Of a stretch of DNA of 64,000 nt, positions 1 to 34,110 are shown one piece after another (within the stretch, counting starts at the first letter, position 1; every line of letters starts with the position of its first letter). Origin of the DNA: Sporichthya polymorpha DSM 43042 (GTDB lineage Bacteria > Actinomycetota > Actinomycetes > Sporichthyales > Sporichthyaceae); the NCBI RefSeq assembly GCF_000384115.1, contig NZ_KB913029.1:4253057-4317056 (forward strand), written 5' to 3'. The translations under genes were made by a program, and so were the position numbers. The notes below the pieces were generated by a model. The model made no database searches. It was not told where the DNA came from and worked only from the letters and a program-made list of their open reading frames with translations.

Positions 1-2241
<2,241 letters not shown>

Positions 2242-2254
2242 GGGACGCACACGC

Positions 2255-3295
2255 ATGAAGCTCTACACCGCACTGACCCGCAAGGCCCTGTTCGCCTCCG
2301 GCGGCGGGGATCCGGAGGCGGCGCACCACCGGACGATCCGCCTGCTGGAGGAGGCGGGGAGCACACCGCGCCGACGGGCCGCCCTGGCCCGCCTGCCGCG
2401 GCCCACCGCGCCGACGACGGTGTTCGGCATCCGGTTCCCGAATCCGGTCGGCCTGGCGGCCGGGATGGACAAGGACGGGGTGGCGATCCCGGCCTGGGGC
2501 GCGCTCGGCTTCGGCTTCGCCGAGGTCGGCACGGTCACCTGGCACGCGCAGCCGGGCAACCCGCAGCCGCGGCTGTTCCGGGCGGTCTCCTCCGAGGCGA
2601 TCGTGAACCGGATGGGCTTCAACAACCGCGGCGCCGAGGCGATGGCCGCGCGCCTCGGTGCGCTCGGCCCGGCGCCGATCCCGATCGGCATCAGCCTCGG
2701 CAAGTCGAAGGTGACGCCGGTCGAGGACGCGACCGAGGACTACCTGAACTCCCTCAAGGTGCTCCTGCCGTACGCCGACTACGTCGCGGTCAACGTCTCC
2801 TCGCCGAACACGCCCGGCCTGCGCTCGCTGCAGGACAAGGGCGCGCTCGACGAGCTGCTCGCCGCGCTGCGCGGGTACACGGTGTCGACCGCCGGACCGG
2901 CCGGTCCGGTGCCGCTGCTGGTGAAGATCGCTCCCGACCTCACCGACTCCGCGATCGCCGAGGTGCTCGAGGTCTGCACCGCCCGCGGTGTCGCCGGGAT
3001 CATCGCGACGAACACGACGATCTCGCGGGACGGACTCGCTCCCGCGGACCGTTACCTGGCCGACGAGGCCGGCGGCCTGTCGGGCCGGCCGGTCCACGCG
3101 ATGTCCGTCCGGACCGTCGCGTTCGTCGTGAAGGAGGCCGGCGACTCGCTGCCGGTCATCGGCGTCGGCGGGATCCTCGACCCCGACGACGCGACCCGCA
3201 TGTTCGATGCCGGCGCTCAGCTGGTCCAGCTCTACACCGGCTTCGTCTACCGGGGTCCCGGCCTGGTCCGCGGCATCGTCAAGCGCGCTCGCTGA
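2255..3295 (+). CDS. pyrD: Dihydroorotate dehydrogenase (quinone), class 2
   Basis: The 346-residue protein oxidises dihydroorotate to orotate at the membrane, passing electrons to quinone (fourth step of pyrimidine synthesis). Class 2 is indicated by the length, the N-terminal helical extension ([20 protein letters not shown]) and the FMN-barrel motifs [36 protein letters not shown] and [11 protein letters not shown]. The ATG at 2255 lies 13 bases after carB and matches the usual family start. The 3' end overlaps the end of the convergent M16 peptidase gene by 17 bases, with no terminator between them. Confidence 0.96.
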
Positions 3296-5999
3296 CGAGC
3301 ACCCGCCCGTCCGCGTCCACCTCGACGAACTCGCCGAGCGCGAGTTCGCCGAGTTGCGGCGTGACCGTTCCGCGGTCGCCGACGACGACCAGGACCATCT
3401 CGTCCAGGTCGAGGAAGTCGGCCAGGAGCTGCCGCAGTGAGGCCGGCGTCAGGTCGGCGACCCGGCCGGGCAGGCCGTCGTAGAAGTCGGTCGGCAGACC
3501 GCACTGGAAGAGCCCCGCTGTCGTCCGCGCGGCGGCGGACGTGGTCGGGAACAGCTGCGCGATCGACGCCACCAGTGACTGCCGCGCCTTGGTCAGCTCC
3601 TCGTCGGTCACGGGCTCGCCGATGATCCGCTCGAGCTCGACGAAGATCTCGCGGATCGCCGGCCCGGTCTGGCGGGCGTCGACCGCGGTGTCGATGAGGA
3701 ACGGGGTCGGTCCGCGGCCGCCGGTGAAGAACGAGAACGCGCCGTAGGTGTAGCCCTTGTCCTCGCGGAGATTGCCGTTGAGCCGGCTCGTGAACAGGCC
3801 GCCGAGCACGAGGTTGCCGACGGCCAGCGGGTCGAACCGCGCGTCACCGCGGGGCCGACCCGGCAGGCCGAGCCGCAGCGCGGTCTGCGTCGCGCCCGGC
3901 ATGTCGACGAAGGCCAGCCGGGGGCCGGAGCGCCGGGCCGGACCCGGCGTCGGCGGCGTCTCGCCGGCGCCCTCCCACGACCCGAACGCGGACTGCGCGA
4001 GCTCGCGCGCCCGCGCCTCGTCGACGTCACCGGTGAGGATCAGCGCACACGTCGCCGGGGTGAAGGTCTTGCCGTGAAGCTCCGTCAGATCGTCGACGGT
4101 CACCCGGCCCACGCCGTCGGGATTGCCGACCGACCGGTGGTCGTAGGGGTGGGCCGGTCCGTAGATCAGCGGGAGGATCGCCGAGCGCGCCACCTCGCCG
4201 ACGTCGGCGCGGGCGCCGCGGATCTCGTCCTGCTGCTGCTTGCGCAGCCGGGCGACGTCCTCCTCGCGCAGGCCGGGGCGCTGGACGAGGTCGGCGAGCA
4301 GGTGGAGGCCGTCCGACGCCTTGTCGCTGAGCAGGTTGATGCTCAGCGTGAGGGCGTCCATCTCCGCCGTTGAGCGCAGACTCGCGCCGAGCGCGGACAC
4401 CTCGGCCGCGGTCCGGTCGGGGGTGCGGCCGGCGTCGCCCTCGCGAAGGACACGGCCGAGCAGCTCGGTCGCCCCGGCGCGGTCGTGCGGATCGGCGGCG
4501 CTGCCGCCGAGGGCGACGACCGAGGCCGTGACGAGCGGGAGGCGCCCCATCGGGACGGTGAAGACCCGCAGCCCGTTGGGCAGGGTGAAGCCGCCGATGC
4601 GGGGGAGTGTCGTGGGCACCTGCGGACCGGGGCCGGGGACGGCGTCGCGCCAGGATTCGGCCGAGACCACCGGCTCCGACTCCGCGGGCAGGACGGTCGG
4701 CTCCGGCGGGTCCGGCGGGAGGTGCCGCGGCCCGGGCTGGGTCTCGATCACCAGCCGACGGTCGGTCAGATAGCGGTTCGCGAACTCGCGCAGGCTCTGC
4801 GCGGTCACGGCCCGGTAGGCCGCGAGGTCCTGGGCCAGGTAGTCCGGCGTTCCCGTGTAGTGGTTGTAGAGGTTGAGCTTGTCGGCACGGTCGCCGAACC
4901 CGCCGATCGCCTCAACGGAACGGATCGTCGCGACGAGGGCGTTGGTCTTCGCCGCCTCCACGCGGTCGGCGTCGAGGTCGGCCGCGCGCACCTGCGCCAG
5001 GACGTCGTCGACCTCCCGCAGCAGCTCGGCGGTGGTGTGCCCGGACGCGGCGACGACCTCGATCTGGAAGGCCGAGCCCTGACCGTGCGAGTCCTGGTAG
5101 GCGTAGACCGACGTCGCCACCTTGAGCTCGCGGATCAGGCGCGTCCGCAGCAGGCTGTGCGCGTCGCCGGCGAGGACGTGGGCGAGCACGTCGGCGTCGG
5201 CGTCACCCTCCGCGAAGGCGAGCGCGGACGGCCAGGCGAGCGTCAGCTTCGGCAGCACGACGTCGTCGGTGAGGGTGAGCCGGCGCTCCTCGGTCAGGTC
5301 GGGGGCCCGGTGCACCTGCCGCGGGACGTCGGCACCGCGCGGGATCGTGCCGAAGTACTTCTCGACGAGCTCGCGGGCACGGGCCGGGTCGAAGTTCCCG
5401 GTGATGGCCAGCGTCGCGTTGTTCGGGACGTAGTAGGTCCGGAAGAAGTCGCGGACGTCGTCGAGCTGGGTCGACGCGATGTCGGTGTGCGAGCCGATGA
5501 TCGACGCGTGGTACGGGTGCGGCGCCGGGAACAGGATCTCGTTCACGGCCTGGTAGGTCAGCGCGTACGGGGCCTGCTCCCAGTTCTGCCGCCGCTCGTT
5601 ACGGACCACCGCGATCTGGTTCGCGAGGTTCCGGGCGTCCAGGCAGTCGAGCAGGTAGGCCATCCGGTCGCTCTCGATCCAGAGCGCCAGCTCGAGCTGC
5701 TCGGGCGGCAGGTTCGGGATGACGTAGTTCGTGTAGTCGTTGTGCGTCGAGGCGTTCGTGTACGCCCCGACCGACTCGGTGAGGATGTCGATCAGCTCGC
5801 CGGGGACGTGCCCGGAGCCCTCGAACATCATGTGCTCGAAGAGGTGGGCGAACCCCGTCGAACCGGGCCGCTCGTCGACCGCACCGACGTGGTACCAGAG
5901 GTTCGTCGCCACCGTGGCCGCCGCCGGCTCGGGGGAGAGGATCACCTCGAGTCCGTTGTCGAGGACGTACTTCTCGACCGGGATCGAGATCTCCACCAA
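3279..5999 (-). CDS. M16 family zinc metallopeptidase, single-chain two-module form
   Basis: About 906 residues. The N-terminal module carries the inverted zinc motif HLFEH (His52, Glu55, His56) and a downstream glutamate-rich helix (NERRQNWEQ) that should supply the third ligand. The second module, from about residue 470, has the same fold signature ([18 protein letters not shown]) but no HxxEH where it would be expected ([10 protein letters not shown]), so it is probably the inactive clamp half. Many bacteria encode these halves as two genes. TTG at 5999 or GTG at 5996 is preferred because a GGGGGG ribosome site sits just upstream; the frame is open further upstream to 6083. No signal peptide is seen, so it is probably cytoplasmic. 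Confidence 0.88.
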
Positions 6000-26763: not shown

Positions 26764-28731
26764 GTGAGTTTCGCCCGGGTCCCCAAGCGGATCCTGCTGG
26801 GGACCCCGATGCGCAGCGACAAGCTCGGGGACACCCTCCTGCGGAAGCGGGTCGGACTGGCGATCTTCGCCTCCGGCCCGCTCTCGTCGGTCGCCTACGC
26901 GCCGCAGGAGATCTTCCTCGTGCTCTCGGTCGCCGGAGCGGTGTACTTCCAGGAAGCGGTCTGGTTCGCGCTCGCGATCGGCGTCCTCATGGTCGTCGTC
27001 ATCTCCTCCTACCGGCAGAGCGTGCGCGAGTACCCCGGCGGCGGCGGTGACTACGACGTCGCGATGGACAACCTCGGCCGCACCGGAGGGCTCACGGTCG
27101 CGAGCGCGCTGATCGTCGACTACATCGTCACCGTCGCGGTCTCGGTCTCCGCGGGCGTGGACAACCTCGGGGCCGCCGTCCCCTTCGTGGCCGAGCACCG
27201 CGTGCAGACGGCGATCGCGGTCATCGCCGTCCTCATGCTGCTCAACCTGCGCGGGATGGCCGAGTCCGGGTTCTGGTTCGCGATCCCGGCCTACACGTTC
27301 GTGGTCGGGGTTCTGGCCCTGATCGGCATCGGGCTGTTCCGCATCCTCGTCCTCGACGACGACGTGAAGGCGCCCAGCGCCGACTACGAGGTGGTCGCGA
27401 GCTCCGGCGAGGTCACCGGCCTCGCGCTCGCGTTCCTGGTCGTGCGCGCGTTCTGCGCCGGCGGCGTCGCGCTCGCCGGCGTCGAGCAGTCCGCGAACGG
27501 TGTCCCGGCGTTCCGCGAGCCCAAGGGGCGCAACGCTGCAAGCGTCCTGCTGTTCATGGGCGGCATGGCCATCACCATGTTCGCCGGCCTGGTCACGCTG
27601 GCGGCCCTGACGGACTTCAAGGTCGCCGACGACCCGGCCACCGAGATCCTCATCGACGGGCAGCCGGCGGGGCCGGGCTACGAGCAGGACCCGATCATCG
27701 CCCAGATGGCCGAAGCGGTCTTCGGCGACGGATCGTGGCCGTTCGTGGCCCTCGCCGTCACCACGACGCTGATCCTGTTCTTCGCCGCGAACACCTCGTT
27801 CAACGGGTTCCCCCAACTCGGGTCGATCCTCGCGCGCGACCGTTGGCTGCCGGGGCAGCTGCGCCAGCGCGGCGACCGCCTCAGCTACAGCAACAGCATC
27901 GTCGCCCTCGCCATCTCCGCGGGCCTGCTCGTCTATGTCGTCGACGCGAACGTCTCGAGCCTTGTCGGCATGTACATCGTCGCGGTCTTCATCTCACTGA
28001 CGCTGGGTCAGGTCGGGCTCGCGAAGCATTGGACGACACTGCTGCGCGCCGGCACCGAAGCCGTGGCGCGCCGTCGGATGCAGCGTGACCGCGCCGTCAA
28101 CGTCGTGGGGGCAGTGTTCACGGGAGCAGTCCTCGCGGTGGTCCTCGTCAGTGACTTCCTCGACGGGGCCTGGGTCGTCGTCGCTGCGGTGCCGGTGTTC
28201 TTCGCGATGATGCACAAGATCGCGAAGCACTACGACCAGTTGAACTCCGAGCTCACCCCGACCGCGGGCGGCGTCACCCTGCCCAGCCGGATCCACGGGA
28301 TCGTGCTCGTCTCCAAGCTGCACACCCCGACCCTGCGCGCGCTCGCGTTCGCCCGCGCCACCCGGCCGGACACCCTCGTCGCGCTGACCGTGCAGACCTC
28401 GCCGGAGAGCACCGCCGACCTGTTGCGGGAGTGGGCCGCACACGACATCGAGGTGCCGCTCACGGTCCTCGACTCCCCGTACCGGGAGGTCACGCGCCCG
28501 GTGCTGGAGTACGTCCGCAACGTGCGCGTCGCGAGCCCGCGCGACGTCATCTGCGTCTTCGTGCCCGAGTACGTGGTCGGCAAGTGGTGGGAGCAACTGC
28601 TCCACAACCAGACCCCGCTGCGGCTCAAGGCCCGCCTGCTGTTCCAGCCGGGCGTGATGGTCACCAGCGTCCCCTGGCAGCTGGGCTCGGCCGAACAGCT
28701 CGAGGCCCGCCGGACCTACAAGCCGCGCTGA
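26764..28731 (+). CDS. KimA-like potassium/proton symporter, copy 1 (altered site)
   Basis: A 655-residue membrane protein with about twelve membrane segments and a C-terminal cytoplasmic domain from about residue 450. The start resembles B. subtilis KimA: PKRILLGTPMRSDKLG, then ASGPLSSVAYAPQEIF, SSYRQSVREYPGGGGDY and LIVDYIVTVAVSVSAGVDNL. In KimA the corresponding SSDALSSVAY contains a conserved Asp; here it is Gly38. The later ALTGVE motif reads ALAGVE (Ala238). The cytoplasmic domain has a nucleotide-binding-like layout (HGIVLVSKLHTPTLRALAFA). It is annotated broadly as APC-superfamily permease; KUP/KimA assignment is from motif comparison. GTG 26764 aligns with the start of copy 2. Confidence 0.82.
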   Translation: MSFARVPKRILLGTPMRSDKLGDTLLRKRVGLAIFASGPLSSVAYAPQEIFLVLSVAGAVYFQEAVWFALAIGVLMVVVISSYRQSVREYPGGGGDYDVAMDNLGRTGGLTVASALIVDYIVTVAVSVSAGVDNLGAAVPFVAEHRVQTAIAVIAVLMLLNLRGMAESGFWFAIPAYTFVVGVLALIGIGLFRILVLDDDVKAPSADYEVVASSGEVTGLALAFLVVRAFCAGGVALAGVEQSANGVPAFREPKGRNAASVLLFMGGMAITMFAGLVTLAALTDFKVADDPATEILIDGQPAGPGYEQDPIIAQMAEAVFGDGSWPFVALAVTTTLILFFAANTSFNGFPQLGSILARDRWLPGQLRQRGDRLSYSNSIVALAISAGLLVYVVDANVSSLVGMYIVAVFISLTLGQVGLAKHWTTLLRAGTEAVARRRMQRDRAVNVVGAVFTGAVLAVVLVSDFLDGAWVVVAAVPVFFAMMHKIAKHYDQLNSELTPTAGGVTLPSRIHGIVLVSKLHTPTLRALAFARATRPDTLVALTVQTSPESTADLLREWAAHDIEVPLTVLDSPYREVTRPVLEYVRNVRVASPRDVICVFVPEYVVGKWWEQLLHNQTPLRLKARLLFQPGVMVTSVPWQLGSAEQLEARRTYKPR

Positions 28732-28842
28732 TCCGGCCGGGCCCGCGCTGGGCGTTAAGAACCCGTCAGGATCCACCGCTCGCCCGCCAGGGAGCCGTCA
28801 AGGGCGGCCCGCGGGGTCGGCCCTGGGGTGTTGGTTGAGGAC

Positions 28843-30807
28843 GTGACGCTGCTCCAGTCCCCGAAACGGCTCCTGCTCGGTTCGCCCCTGCGTTCGGACC
28901 GCCTGGGGGAGACCCTGCTGCGCAAGCGGGTCGCGCTGCCGATCTTCGCCTCCGACCCGCTGTCCTCGGTCGCGTACGCCCCGCAGGAGATCTTCCTGGT
29001 GCTGTCGGTGGCGGGAGTCACCTACTACTCGTACAGCTTCTGGTTCGCCGTCGCGGTCGCGGTCCTGATGGCGACCGTCGTCGCGTCCTACCGGCAGAAC
29101 GTGCACGCCTACCCGGGCGGCGGGGGTGACTACGAGGTGGCGAGGCGCAACCTCGGGGAGGCCGGCGGTCTCACCGTCGCGAGTGCGCTGCTCGTCGACT
29201 ACGTCCTCACGGTCGCGGTGTCCGTCGCGGCCGGCGTCGACAACCTGGCCTCCGCGGTCGGGGCCGTGGGCGAGCACAAGGTCGCCGTGGCGCTCGGCGT
29301 GATCACGCTGCTGACGCTGGTGAATTTGCGCGGCGTGAAGGAGGCCGGTCTCGCGTTCGCGCTCCCGACCTACGCCTTCATCGCCGGGGTCCTGACGCTG
29401 ATCGCCGTCGGGCTGACGAAGGCCTTCGTCCTCGGCGGCGACCTGCGGGCGCCGACGGCCGGGTACGAGATCGTCGCCGAGCACAGCGAACTGACCGGCC
29501 TGGCGCTCGTGTTCCTCCTGATGCGCACCTTCGCCTCCGGTTGCGCGGCCCTGACCGGCGTGGAGGCGATCGCGAACGGCGTCCCCGCGTTCCGGGAGCC
29601 GAAGAGCCGCAACGCCGCGACCACGCTCCTGGTGATGGGTGCGCTCGCGGTCTCGATGTTCGCGGGCCTGATCCTGCTCGGGCAGCAGTCGGACCTGCGG
29701 GTCGCCGAGCACCCGGCGACGGAGATCCTCATCGACGGCGCGCCCGCGGGGCCGGACTACCACCAGGACCCGATCATCGCCCAGGTCGCGGCGGCGGTCT
29801 TCGGCGACGGGTCCTTCGCCTTCGTCTACCTCGCGGCCGTGACTGCGCTGATCCTGTTCTTCGCCGCGAACACCGCCTACAACGGCTTCCCGCTGCTCGC
29901 CTCGGTCCTGGCGCACGACCACTACCTGCCACGGCAGCTCCGCCAGCGCGGGGACCGCCTCGCGTACAGCAACGGCATCGTCCTGCTCGCGGTGGCGGCC
30001 GGCGCCCTGGTCTACGCCTTCGACGCCGACGTCACACGCCTGATCCAGCTGTACATCATCGGCGTCTTCGTCTCGTTCACCCTCGGCCAGACCGGGATGG
30101 TGCGGCACTGGACGCGGCTGCTCCGCACCGAGACGAAGCCCGCCCGCCGGTCGCGGATGGTCCGTGCGCGGGTGATCAACTCCGTCGGGCTGTTCTTCAC
30201 CGGAGCGGTGCTCGTCATCGTGCTCGTGACGAAGTTCACCCACGGTGCGTACCTGGTGCTGATCGCGATGCCGATCCTGTTCGCCGGCATGAAGGGCATC
30301 CGGCGCCACTACGACCAGCTCGTCGACGAGCTCACGCCCCCACCCGCCGGGGTGACGCTCCCCAGCCGGATCCACAGCATCGTCCTGATCTCGCGCCTCC
30401 ACACACCCGCGCTGCGAGCGCTCGCCTTCGCCCGCGCCACCCGGCCGGACACCCTGACGGCGCTGACCGTGCAGATCTCGCCCGCGGCCACGCGCGCGCT
30501 GCTCGAGGACTGGGCCCGCCGCGACATCCCGGTCCCGCTGACGGTGCTGGACTCGCCGTACCGCGACGTCATCGGCTCGATCGTCGAGTACGTCCGGGCG
30601 CAACGCCGCGAGAGCCCGCGTGACGTCGTCTGCGTGTTCATCCCCGAATACGTCGTCGGTCACTGGTGGGAGCAACTTCTCCACAACCAGACCGCGCTGC
30701 GACTCAAGGCTCGGCTGCTGTTCCAGCCGGGGGTGATGGTCACGAGCGTCCCGTGGCAACTCGGGTCGGCGGAGGGTCGCGAGGCGCGCCGTGCGCCGGT
30801 TGCCTGA
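28843..30807 (+). CDS. KimA-like potassium/proton symporter, copy 2 (conserved site)
   Basis: A 654-residue paralogue of the preceding gene. It keeps the KimA-type residues: FASDPLSSVAYAPQEIF (Asp38), LLVDYVLTVAVSVAAGVDNL and CAALTGVEAIANGVPAF (Thr238). The C-terminal domain includes SRIHSIVLISRLHTPALRAL. GTG 28843 is selected because it aligns residue for residue with the start of copy 1; an in-frame GTG at 28828 would add five residues. It is followed after 6 bases by a KdpD-like kinase, suggesting a potassium-response operon. Known KimA imports K+ with protons and is inhibited by c-di-AMP in Bacillus; control here is unknown. Confidence 0.84.
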   Translation: MTLLQSPKRLLLGSPLRSDRLGETLLRKRVALPIFASDPLSSVAYAPQEIFLVLSVAGVTYYSYSFWFAVAVAVLMATVVASYRQNVHAYPGGGGDYEVARRNLGEAGGLTVASALLVDYVLTVAVSVAAGVDNLASAVGAVGEHKVAVALGVITLLTLVNLRGVKEAGLAFALPTYAFIAGVLTLIAVGLTKAFVLGGDLRAPTAGYEIVAEHSELTGLALVFLLMRTFASGCAALTGVEAIANGVPAFREPKSRNAATTLLVMGALAVSMFAGLILLGQQSDLRVAEHPATEILIDGAPAGPDYHQDPIIAQVAAAVFGDGSFAFVYLAAVTALILFFAANTAYNGFPLLASVLAHDHYLPRQLRQRGDRLAYSNGIVLLAVAAGALVYAFDADVTRLIQLYIIGVFVSFTLGQTGMVRHWTRLLRTETKPARRSRMVRARVINSVGLFFTGAVLVIVLVTKFTHGAYLVLIAMPILFAGMKGIRRHYDQLVDELTPPPAGVTLPSRIHSIVLISRLHTPALRALAFARATRPDTLTALTVQISPAATRALLEDWARRDIPVPLTVLDSPYRDVIGSIVEYVRAQRRESPRDVVCVFIPEYVVGHWWEQLLHNQTALRLKARLLFQPGVMVTSVPWQLGSAEGREARRAPVA

Positions 30808-30813
30808 CGGGGT

Positions 30814-32268
30814 GTGAGACTGATTCCCGTGCCGGACGACGGACCCGCGAGCAGCGCGGGAGCGGGACTGCCCCGCACTCGGCGGTGGGCCGCCCTCGCC
30901 GCAGCGGCCGCGGTGCTGCCGGCGATGACGGCCGTCATGGTCCGGGTGCGCGAGAACCTGGACCTCGAGAGCGTCCTGCTGCTCTACGTCCTCGCGGTCG
31001 TGCTGACCTCGCTCCTCGGGGGCGTGCTGCCGGCCGTGCTCGCGGCGGGCGCCGCCCTGCTGCTCGCCACCCACTGGTTCACCGAGCCGTACGGGGACTG
31101 GGACGTCACACACCGCCTCGACGCCATCGCGCTCGTCACGTTCGCGCTCGTCGCCGTCGGAGTCAGCGTGACCGTCGAGCTCGCGGCCCGGGCGCGCGTC
31201 GCGGCGGTCCGCGAGCGCGTCGAGGCGGATCTGCTCTCGCGCGTGACCTCCGGCCCGGTCCGGGAGACCTCGCTGACGGATCTTCTCGCCCAGGTCCGCG
31301 ACACCTTCGGCATGACCTCGGTGGCACTGGTCGCCGGCGCCGGGACCGAGTCGGCCCGAACCGTCGGCCTGGTCGGCCCGGCGCTGACCGGACCACCGGT
31401 CATCGCGGCCGACGCCGGGGACGGGCTGCGGCTGGTCGCCGCCGGCCCGGAGCACCTCGCCGCCGACCGCCGCCTGTTCGGCCGCCTCGCCGGGGCGGCG
31501 GCGCGGGCCTGGGACGCCCAGCGGCTGGCGGAGGAGGCCGCCCAGGAGGCGGCCCGGGCGCGGGACCTCGCCGAGGTGGACCAGCTCCGCTCGGCACTGC
31601 TGGCCGCGGTGGGGCACGACCTGCGCACCCCGCTGGCCGGGATCAAGGCGGCGGTGTCCAGCCTCCGCGCGCCGGACGTCGCGTTCGACGAGGGCGACCG
31701 CGCGGAACTGCTCGCCTCGATCGAGGAATCCGCCGACCGCCTCGACGGGCTCGTTGCGAACCTGCTGGCGATGAGCCGGCTCCAGGCGGGCGTGCTGTCG
31801 GTGCAGCTGGCCCCCGTCGCCCTCGACGAGGTCGTCGCGCGGGTGCTCCTCGACGGACCGCGGACCGCACCGGTGGACGTCGACGTCCCCGACGACCTGC
31901 CCCACGCCTCCACGGACGCGGGGCTCCTCGAACGGGTGGTGGCGAACCTCGTCGACAACGCGTGCCGGTTCGCCTCGGCCGGTACCACGGTGCGCGTCGT
32001 CGGACGTGCCACGGCCGACCGCCGCGCGCTGCACCTGGCGGTGGCCGATCACGGGCCCGGCGTTCCGTCCGAGCGGTGGGAGGAGATGTTCACCCCGTTC
32101 CAGCGGCTCGACGACCGGCACGGTCCCGGCGTCGGCCTCGGGCTCGCCATCGCGCGCGGCTTCGCGGCGGCGGTCGGCGGCACCCTCGAACCGTCCGCGA
32201 CCGAGGGCGGCGGCCTCACGATGACACTGACGCTCCCGGCGACGCAGAACCGGGCGGAGCAGACGTGA
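30814..32268 (+). CDS. KdpD-like sensor histidine kinase, truncated form
   Basis: A 484-residue kinase. It starts with a DUF4118-type four-helix membrane domain (residues about 25-120: WAALAAAAAVLPAMTAVMV and later segments). HisKA has AAVGHDLRTPLAGIKAAVSS with the phospho-accepting His. HATPase motifs are NLVDNACRFA, DHGPGVPSE and GVGLGLAIARGFA. The long N-terminal KdpD and universal-stress-like sensor domains of full KdpD (about 900 residues) are absent. It overlaps the response regulator by 4 bases and follows the KimA pair closely. GTG 30814 is used; GTG 30829 is an alternative. Confidence 0.87.
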   Translation: MRLIPVPDDGPASSAGAGLPRTRRWAALAAAAAVLPAMTAVMVRVRENLDLESVLLLYVLAVVLTSLLGGVLPAVLAAGAALLLATHWFTEPYGDWDVTHRLDAIALVTFALVAVGVSVTVELAARARVAAVRERVEADLLSRVTSGPVRETSLTDLLAQVRDTFGMTSVALVAGAGTESARTVGLVGPALTGPPVIAADAGDGLRLVAAGPEHLAADRRLFGRLAGAAARAWDAQRLAEEAAQEAARARDLAEVDQLRSALLAAVGHDLRTPLAGIKAAVSSLRAPDVAFDEGDRAELLASIEESADRLDGLVANLLAMSRLQAGVLSVQLAPVALDEVVARVLLDGPRTAPVDVDVPDDLPHASTDAGLLERVVANLVDNACRFASAGTTVRVVGRATADRRALHLAVADHGPGVPSERWEEMFTPFQRLDDRHGPGVGLGLAIARGFAAAVGGTLEPSATEGGGLTMTLTLPATQNRAEQT

Positions 32269-32993
32269 CGCAGCGTCAGGAATCAGCGGGAACGGGTCGG
32301 GCCTGCGTGCTCGTGATCGACGATGACGCCACCCTGCGCCGGGCGCTGGGCATCAACCTGCGGGCCCGCGGCTACGAGATGCTCGACGCGGCCGACGGCA
32401 CAACCGCCCTCGCCGTCGCGGCTCGCCGGCCGCCCGACGTGGTGATTCTCGACCTCGGGCTGCCGGACCTCGACGGCGTGGAGGTCATCCACGGCCTGCG
32501 CGGCTGGTGCCACGCGCCGATCGTCGTGCTCTCGGCCCGGGAGGACCAGGCGCAGAAGGTCGCGGCGCTCGACGCCGGCGCGGACGACTACGTCACCAAG
32601 CCGTTCGGCATGGACGAGTTGCTCGCACGCATCCGGGTGGCCCTGCGCCGCCCCGCCGTCCCGGCGGACGAGAGCGCGCCGGTCGTCACCACCCCGGACT
32701 TCACCGTCGACCTCGCGGCCCGGCGGGTGACCACCGCGGGGGGCGAGGAGGTCCGCCTGACCCCGACCGAGTGGGCGCTGCTCGAGGTCCTGGTCCGGCA
32801 CCCCGGCCGCCACGTCCCGTCGCGCATGCTGCTGCAGGAGGTCTGGGGGCCGGCGTACGGCACCGAGACGAACTACCTGCGCGTGTACGTGGCGCAGTTG
32901 CGCCGCAAGCTCGAACCCGACCCGGCCCGTCCGCGGTACCTGATCACCGACCCGGGGATGGGATACCACTTCGCACCCGCCGACCCGCGCTGA
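32265..32993 (+). CDS. KdpE-like OmpR-family response regulator
   Basis: A 242-residue regulator. The receiver domain spans about residues 14-125, with the phospho-acceptor in VVILDLGLPDLDG, acidic pocket VIDDDAT and Lys in YVTKPFGMDELLARI. The C-terminal winged helix (about 140-236) has LTPTEWALLEVLVRHPGRHV and LRVYVAQLRRKLEPDP, both typical of KdpE. The GTG start overlaps the kinase stop. The 3' end overlaps the convergent glycine-rich gene by 50 bases. The likely targets are the two KimA-like genes, as no kdpFABC is present in the window. Confidence 0.9.
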   Translation: MTQRQESAGTGRACVLVIDDDATLRRALGINLRARGYEMLDAADGTTALAVAARRPPDVVILDLGLPDLDGVEVIHGLRGWCHAPIVVLSAREDQAQKVAALDAGADDYVTKPFGMDELLARIRVALRRPAVPADESAPVVTTPDFTVDLAARRVTTAGGEEVRLTPTEWALLEVLVRHPGRHVPSRMLLQEVWGPAYGTETNYLRVYVAQLRRKLEPDPARPRYLITDPGMGYHFAPADPR

Positions 32994-34110
32994 TCCGGGC
33001 CGCCCGCTTCGTCGCGGCCCCGCCCGTCGTCGCGGAGTCGCGGTTCTTGGCGCCCGGGAGGGTGAACGAGATCGCGATCTCGCCCGGACCGGAGACCGAG
33101 CCCGGCCCGATCTCGGCCTTGCTCAGCCGGACCCCGGGTCCGGCGCTGGCGACGAAGCCGCTGCCGCCGCCCCCGCCGCCGCTGACCATCTGCAGGTCGG
33201 CCGGCGAGATCGCATCGGTGGGGACGCTCGTCCCGCCGCCGCCCCCGCCGAAGAAGCCGCCACCGCCACCGCCCCCGCCACCGGGGGCGGACAGCGACGC
33301 GGCGCCGAGACCGCCGACCCCCTGCTCACCGTCCCGCCCGCCGGGGCCGCCGGCGCCGCCGCCCGAGGTCAGCCCGCCCTGGCCCCGGTTGGGTCCGCCG
33401 TTGCCGGGGTCGCCCTCAGGACCGCCACCGCCGCCACCGGCGCCGCCCGGCGTCCCGCTGTAGGTGCCCCCGCCCCCGCCGCCGCCACCGGCCGCGAGCA
33501 GCGGCACCGCGACCTGCGGGAGCGTGGTGTGGGCCATCACGAACGACCCGCCTCCGCCGCCGCCCCCGCCGCCGCCGAACTGGTTGAACGGGTCGCAGAC
33601 ATCGGTGCTCGGGTCGAGCTGCACGGTGCCGCCGGGCGCCCCGCCGTTCACCCCACCGGCTCCACCGGTGATGCCGTTCGCGGACGAGCCGATTCCGCCG
33701 ACGTAGAGGTCGAGCACCTGCCCGGGTTCGACGTTGAGGACCGCTCGAGCGGTACCGCCGAGGCCGCCCGGCGCGCCGGTCACGGTCCGGGCACGGGGGA
33801 GCGAGAGCGTGCCCTCGGTGCAGTCGCTCTGCTGGTCCGCATCGCCCGGTCCGCCGGAACCACCGCGGGCCCCGACGACGAGGTTGACCACGCCGGCGGG
33901 GACGGTGAAGACCGTCGCGATCGCCGAGGGTTCGGTGAACAGGCACTGGACGGCCCGCCCGCTCGCGGTGCACTCGGCGGGCAGCGGCGCGCGGGGTGCG
34001 GCGCCGGCCGGGGGAGCGGTCGTGGCCACGAGGAGCGGTACCAGCAGCGGACCGAGAATCCACGGCCGGGACGACCCACCGACCCTGCCCCGCATCACCC
34101 GCTGTGCCAT
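32944..34110 (-). CDS. Secreted glycine-rich protein
   Basis: A 388-residue protein. The N-terminal signal peptide (PWILGPLLVPLLVATTAPPAGA) is followed by a short domain with two Cys (AECTASGRAVQCLF) and IATVFTVPAGVVNLVVGARG, a pattern seen at the start of bacterial Gly-rich repeat domains. From about residue 120 to 330 the chain is dominated by Gly runs (up to eleven in a row) with Ser, Ala and Pro. The C-terminal 30 residues are basic. A cell-surface or matrix role is plausible but unproven. Its 3' end is antisense to the last 50 bases of the response regulator. Confidence 0.75.
   Translation of the reverse strand: MAQRVMRGRVGGSSRPWILGPLLVPLLVATTAPPAGAAPRAPLPAECTASGRAVQCLFTEPSAIATVFTVPAGVVNLVVGARGGSGGPGDADQQSDCTEGTLSLPRARTVTGAPGGLGGTARAVLNVEPGQVLDLYVGGIGSSANGITGGAGGVNGGAPGGTVQLDPSTDVCDPFNQFGGGGGGGGGGSFVMAHTTLPQVAVPLLAAGGGGGGGGTYSGTPGGAGGGGGGPEGDPGNGGPNRGQGGLTSGGGAGGPGGRDGEQGVGGLGAASLSAPGGGGGGGGGFFGGGGGGTSVPTDAISPADLQMVSGGGGGGSGFVASAGPGVRLSKAEIGPGSVSGPGEIAISFTLPGAKNRDSATTGGAATKRAARISAGRRVRSGIPSPGR

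Follow-up and report, generated by a model that had tools for sequence, protein, structure and literature searches.

A KimA paralogue of Sporichthya without the potassium-binding aspartate

Sporichthya polymorpha carries two tandem genes for relatives of KimA, the K+/H+ symporter of Bacillus subtilis that belongs to the KUP family. They lie in a stretch of 64,000 nucleotides (the window), which spans positions 4,253,057-4,317,056 of the 5.5 Mb single-contig genome. We find that the upstream gene (copy 1) has lost the aspartate of transmembrane helix 1 (TM1) on which K+ binding in the KUP family is thought to rest, as part of a wider change in its membrane core, and that the downstream gene (copy 2) keeps a canonical site. 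We tentatively interpret copy 1 as a neofunctionalised paralogue of KimA: its pocket would not accept K+ in the KimA manner, and it would most likely be a proton-coupled carrier of another substrate. The two genes and the codons at issue are as follows.

26764-28731, + strand: copy 1, KimA paralogue with an altered ion site; open reading frame (ORF) of 655 aa, phmmer match to KimA (PDB 6s3k) with E 2.5e-94
28828-30807, + strand: copy 2, KimA with a canonical ion site; ORF of 659 aa, phmmer match to KimA (6s3k) with E 1e-108
26875-26877, + strand: codon GGC for Gly38 of copy 1, the KimA Asp36 position in TM1 (phmmer alignment)
27475-27477, + strand: codon GCC for Ala238 of copy 1, the KimA Thr230 position in TM6 (phmmer alignment)
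27484-27486, + strand: codon GAG for Glu241 of copy 1, aligned with the proton-coupling Glu233 of KimA and retained
28954-28956, + strand: codon for Asp43 of copy 2, the KimA Asp36 position (alignment, counted from the ORF start at 28828)
29554-29556, + strand: codon for Thr243 of copy 2, the KimA Thr230 position (alignment, same start)

The alignments with B. subtilis KimA cover almost the full length of both copies (copy 1 residues 8-639). Gly38 of copy 1 falls on KimA D36 and Ala238 on T230, and copy 2 has Asp and Thr there. An earlier note, made from the sequence alone, had picked out this same contrast; phmmer confirms both substitutions, while the copy 2 residues that it numbered Asp38 and Thr238, presuming a start at 28843, are D43 and T243 from the listed GTG start at 28828. 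The note was also right to place both positions in the described K+ site. In a structure of KimA, D36 contributes its carbonyl and carboxyl to K+ coordination and T230 its hydroxyl and carbonyl, with Y43 and Y377 as further ligands (PMC10284832, available part), and the alignment shows both D36 and T230 lost in copy 1 alone. The two losses do not carry equal weight, however. The D36A and D36N variants of KimA abolish K+ uptake, and D36A abolishes K+/Rb+ exchange too, whereas T230A grows as wild type (KS, the half-saturation constant, 0.07 versus 0.09 mM); E233 is the proton-coupling residue (PMC6994465, available part). Because D36 is essential and T230A is wild-type–like, D36 is the loss that matters. 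By analogy with these mutants, copy 1 should have lost K+ transport.

The altered site is shared across the genus. We compared three Sporichthya-type genomes (G000, G001, and G002), whose copy 1 proteins are 84-95% identical; in G000, the two genes of the window are the only KimA genes. The D36 position is Gly in copy 1 and Asp in copy 2 of all three, and the T230 position is Ala in every copy 1, so that the Gly/Ala pair is fixed in copy 1 orthologues (3/3 genomes). The recurrence of the same residues at this level of identity rules out sequencing error as their cause. A near relative, at 83% identity in copy 1, carries the label Sporichthya sp. MGR_bin378 (L032). Copy 1 retains Y43, D117, Y118, T121, S125, E233, N237, and Y377 (KimA numbering) in all three genomes, and E233 and the gate tyrosines Y43 and Y377 are kept in both copies throughout. 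S224 is altered in copy 1, and A234 is replaced by Gln. Among the residues that contact cyclic di-AMP (c-di-AMP), H579, N580, and Q581 are retained in copy 1, and R337 is Gly in two of the three proteins; R337 is not essential for inhibition of KimA by c-di-AMP (PMC10284832, available part). Separately, copy 2 of G001 (1481-3517 of its locus, L113/L273) has His at the KimA Q581 position of the c-di-AMP pocket.

Predicted structures agree with this alignment. An AlphaFold model of copy 1 (40-row alignment; mean predicted local distance difference test score, pLDDT, 84.8) has KimA (PDB 8b71) as its best fold match (Z 53.2, 549 residues, 34% identity, root mean square deviation 3.2). Secondary-structure elements of the copy 2 model match those of copy 1 after a 5-residue shift, including the break in TM6 at the T230 site. 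Because the two models match in this way, and because residues 32-641 of the copy 1 model can be aligned to KimA, the alignment register is sound.

Loss of D36 is rare among KimA relatives. We gathered these from genomes at the levels of genus, family, class, and phylum, and the counts cover sampled loci among the matches. The first set comprised 174 ORFs, 171 of them full length and 163 distinct. Among its 157 rows without Sporichthya-type copies, the D36 position is Asp in 156 and Ser in one. The wider set comprised 242 distinct ORFs, from 273 before duplicates and fragments were removed; here, Asp occurs at D36 in 238, Gly in three, and Ser in one, with Gly confined to copy 1 of G000, G001, and G002. 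At the T230 position of the wider set, Ala occurs in copy 1 only, Ser is found at loci L246 and L248, and L054 is gapped. With the two proteins of the window added to the 242, Y43 is present in 244/244 aligned rows and E233 in 243/244, the remaining row being gapped. Of the plasmid records that matched (107), six were aligned, and these homologues come from Priestia, Alicyclobacillus, Rhizobium, Rhodococcus, and Streptomyces; one does not extend to the TM1 site, and the five that reach it have D36. The single Ser row belongs to Arthrobacter sp. B6 (L093:3962-5950), where the codon is TCC, the rest of the site is canonical, and close relatives have Asp; it is either a second independent case or a strain-level change.

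Pattern searches gave a similar picture. A degenerate TM1 pattern, with C or G as the middle base of the codon at D36, matched in five of 393 genomes scanned: the three Sporichthya-type genomes, G110, and G163. The match regions of the last two have no similarity to KimA. The Asp version of this pattern recovers 112 of 165 known ORFs other than copy 1 (112/171 of all tested), and rarer cases of D36 loss could thus be missed. The TM6 pattern ALAGVEQ matched in 11 of 282 loci, every one a stretch with a Sporichthya-type copy 1. Duplication alone does not cause the loss, because at eight other loci with two nearby KimA genes the aspartate, threonine, and glutamate are retained in all 16 ORFs; the same count rules out widespread D36 loss among duplicated KimA genes. 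No title or abstract opening listed in our searches of the open-licence literature describes a D36-less KimA or potassium transport in Sporichthya. The fold and family are already known; as judged from these titles and openings, what is new is that a paralogue under selection has naturally lost the K+-binding aspartate. We also noted two genomes in which the KimA match falls in two pieces within one open frame (G057:C6:91323-93353, 712 aa, and G072:C1:392134-394152, 738 aa), which suggests a lineage-specific insert of ~35 residues near query residue 433.

The change in copy 1 goes well beyond the two residues that the earlier note had named. We defined near-invariant positions as alignment columns conserved in at least 97% of the 157 other rows (n = 155). 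The three copy 1 proteins all depart from the conserved residue at 15 of these 155, and the copy 2 proteins at none. In copy 1 numbering, they are residues 31, 33, 38, 232, 238, 242, 261, 345, 378, 403, 407, 412, 419, 464, and 618. The helices of the copy 1 model place four of them in TM10 and three in each of TM1 and TM6; TM7, TM8, TM9, and TM12 have a single one apiece, and the remaining one is cytosolic. Together, TM1, TM6, and TM10 hold 10 of the 15 changed positions versus 30 of the 140 unchanged conserved positions (Fisher test, P = 5e-4), although these helices were chosen post hoc. Nearness of changed positions to site residues along the sequence gave P values of 0.11, 0.03, 0.004, and 0.01 at distances of 4, 6, 8, and 10 residues. 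Since the 4-residue test is not significant, the claim of clustering rests mainly on the post hoc choice of helices 1, 6, and 10.

We find that these changes followed a duplication. In a quick tree of 77 rows, from which the D36 and TM6 columns were removed and for which support is limited to the Shimodaira-Hasegawa–like approximate likelihood ratio test (SH-aLRT), the six Sporichthya-type sequences group in a single clade (SH-aLRT 100), divided into copy 1 (100) and copy 2 (91). This clade adjoins one KimA gene each of G003 and G004, the other two genomes of the family. The sequence tree thus places the duplication within the Sporichthya lineage. The copy 1 stem is far longer than that of copy 2 (0.41 versus 0.07 changes per column), and later branches are alike. 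Relative-rate tests, with the KimA genes of G003 and G004 as outgroups, locate the difference in the membrane domain, where 87-93 changes are unique to copy 1 versus 23-33 unique to copy 2 (6/6 comparisons, P < 1e-6); the cytosolic domain shows no difference (12-15 versus 8-15, P 0.29-1). One such pair of counts is 93 versus 28 for the membrane domain, against 14 versus 10 for the cytosolic domain. Identity between the copies is accordingly higher in the cytosolic domain (0.75-0.77) than in the membrane domain (0.62-0.63). We saw no sign that gene conversion has kept the cytosolic domains alike, as nucleotide identity within and between genomes is similar (0.74-0.77). As an aside, the cytosolic domain of G001 copy 2 changes faster than that of copy 1.

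A redundant duplicate drifting under relaxed constraint might also show a long stem, and the ratio of nonsynonymous to synonymous change (dN/dS) is indeed raised between copy 1 and copy 2 (0.41-0.44). Between species, however, dN/dS is 0.10-0.18 for copy 1, not above the 0.08-0.20 of copy 2, although these ratios are rough because of the simple counting method and third positions that are 88-98% GC. This purifying selection argues that copy 1 is not decaying. The gene is intact in 3/3 genomes, with no stops, its pocket changes are identical in all three, and the rapid phase, which affected only the membrane domain, is over. Selection and the fixation of the same residues in three genomes lead us to reject a pseudogene or drift, which we regard as very improbable. 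As read from the sequences, a burst of replacement in the membrane core followed the duplication, with ordinary constraint since.

The surrounding genes bear on what copy 1 may do. Next to the two copies lies a two-component pair, on the same strand.

30814-32268, + strand: sensor kinase with DUF4118, HisKA, and HATPase domains (Pfam), resembling the C-terminal part of KdpD
32265-32993, + strand: OmpR/KdpE-type response regulator (Pfam Response_reg and Trans_reg_C), whose start overlaps the kinase stop

In the ORF list of the window, the two KimA copies stand in tandem and are followed by the kinase and then the regulator. With rsmB in front, the order rsmB, copy 1, copy 2, kinase, regulator is seen in both G000 and G002. 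In the draft genome G001, a 5-kb contig carries rsmB, copy 1, kinase, and regulator, and copy 2 lies on a separate contig by an aquaporin-family gene. Copy 1 is thus linked to the kinase and regulator in all three genomes. The separation in G001 also weakens the suggestion of the earlier note that copy 1 needs copy 2, at least as a neighbor, with the reservation that the genome is a draft. G003 and G004 each have one KimA gene near or beside rsmB, without a matching kinase pair there. The best NCBIfam match of the kinase is to KdpD residues 643-884, below the cut-off, and Pfam found no KdpD or Usp N-terminal domains in it. KdpA was not found in G000 by genome searches, which did not cover Kup (PF02705); they found one TrkH-type protein beside one TrkA-type protein, and one diadenylate cyclase domain. 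Because the kinase lacks the KdpD N-terminal domains and the genome lacks KdpA, the target of the kinase is probably the KimA operon or another gene. No Rfam riboswitch match was found within the window at gathering scores.

Two further observations concern neighboring or related loci. Just past the regulator gene, on the - strand, is a glycine-rich ORF of 388 aa with the look of a secreted protein (32944-34110 of the window). Elsewhere in G000 (L274:1907-4616), a pair of TrkA-type genes adjoins a TRAM-domain methyltransferase, with no KimA between. In mycobacteria, a KimA homologue presumably stands at such loci, which would suggest that KimA was relocated to rsmB in the Sporichthya family.

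These arrangements raise the main rival to a changed substrate, namely that copy 1 is a nontransporting sensor or regulatory subunit, which would either pair with copy 2 in mixed dimers, held together by the conserved cytosolic domain, or signal to the DUF4118 kinase as UhpC does to UhpB. There is precedent in that pair, in which a transporter homologue acts as sensor to a kinase (PMC5703999, available part). The cytosolic domain has evolved at an ordinary rate and differs less between the copies than the membrane domain, copy 1 stays by the kinase and regulator even where copy 2 is elsewhere, and the kinase has neither the N-terminal domains of KdpD nor, in G000, a KdpA for a KdpDE to serve. 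However, KimA-type genes with a normal site are also commonly found beside a similar DUF4118 kinase and regulator in the wider set, at some of the other loci. Since KimA genes in general often adjoin such pairs, the linkage is not special to copy 1. The telling arrangement in G001 comes from one draft genome, and mixed dimers are hypothetical. We consider this role rather unlikely. We likewise consider it unlikely, and more so, that copy 1 has given up K+ import and turned into a signalling input, as a receptor derived from a carrier, whose pocket binds a new ligand and whose KimA-type cytosolic domain couples it to copy 2 and the KdpDE-like kinase.

We favor a changed substrate over a sensor because copy 1 is under selection and because only its membrane domain changed fast. 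After the duplication, copy 2 would have remained an ordinary KimA-type K+/H+ symporter. The pocket of copy 1 would have been rebuilt, with replacement of the TM1 carboxylate (D36), the TM6 hydroxyls (T230 and S224), and flanking residues in TM6, TM8, and TM10, and the transport frame (Y43, T121, S125, E233, N237, and Y377) and the dimerising cytosolic domain would have been preserved. Copy 1 would most likely still be a proton-coupled carrier, with a pocket unsuited to bare K+ and a different substrate, possibly uncharged, larger, or zwitterionic. Several points weigh against this interpretation. Linkage to a KdpDE-like pair suggests K+ over another solute, and a copy 1 that had lost transport and taken on a regulatory role could show the same burst of replacement. 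The kept E233, Y43, and Y377 are consistent with a working carrier, yet they are weak evidence because only ~10% of near-invariant positions changed, so that chance retention of seven or eight site residues would be common. Carrier activity itself is inferred.

Backbone carbonyls together with Tyr45, Thr123, and Tyr404 might instead still let copy 1 move K+ or another monovalent cation, be it at low affinity, with changed selectivity, or along with an anion. Cation-chloride cotransporters have carboxylate-poor K+ sites, and in a Foldseek search with the copy 1 model, NKCC/NCC/KCC proteins rank directly after KimA. Those sites, however, use a TM6 threonine. Both TM6 hydroxyls are gone from copy 1, and the position that corresponds to the cotransporter threonine, as judged from the common fold, is Ala238 in 3/3 proteins. 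A structural aligner moreover scores amino-acid carriers above NKCC1. KimA also holds K+ with the backbone carbonyls of D36 and T230 and with Tyr43 and Tyr377 (PMC10284832, available part), which would leave copy 1 some ligands; the D36A and D36N variants are nonetheless dead for uptake, and D36A for exchange (PMC6994465, available part). We regard residual cation transport as doubtful.

A homology-based annotation would label copy 1 a potassium importer despite the missing key residue. As a selected natural paralogue without D36 that stands beside an intact copy, it offers a ready way to learn whether the KUP scaffold can be adapted to another substrate or made into a sensor, and which residues would bring this about.

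Among known systems, KimA is the closest to copy 1, which shares its sequence, the fold of both domains, and residues Y43, D117, Y118, T121, S125, E233, N237, and Y377. Copy 1 differs from KimA in the loss of D36, T230, and S224, the A234 to Gln replacement, the 15 near-invariant changes, and Gly at R337 in two of three proteins. Of the traits of the KimA branch of the KUP family, full-length homology is found in both copies, and the LeuT fold with a PPAT-like cytosolic domain is found in the copy 1 model; the TM1 aspartate is absent from copy 1 and present in copy 2, in 3/3 genomes each. Copy 1 is 66% identical to copy 2. Unlike copy 1, copy 2 retains D36 and T230, as do, with few exceptions, the KimA-like symporters found in other Actinomycetota.

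More distant likenesses are of fold. Next after KimA among the matches of the copy 1 model come amino-acid carriers, ApcT among them (Z about 30-33), and then the membrane domains of NKCC1 (about 28). NKCC1, ApcT, and AdiC have the core fold in common with copy 1, at ~9-16% identity in the fold matches. These model matches indicate a common fold, not a common function, and we found no sequence sign that copy 1 belongs to the cation-chloride cotransporters or the APC amino-acid carriers. The pockets of both groups lack a TM1 carboxylate.

A possible functional parallel is UhpC of Escherichia coli, the sensor for UhpB, which is likewise a transporter paralogue beside a sensor kinase and response regulator. 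The two differ in kinase type, the fold family of UhpC is unrelated to KimA, and in Sporichthya any coupling of copy 1 to the kinase is a conjecture from gene linkage. If copy 1 does prove to be a receptor, it would be the counterpart of UhpC in the KUP family.

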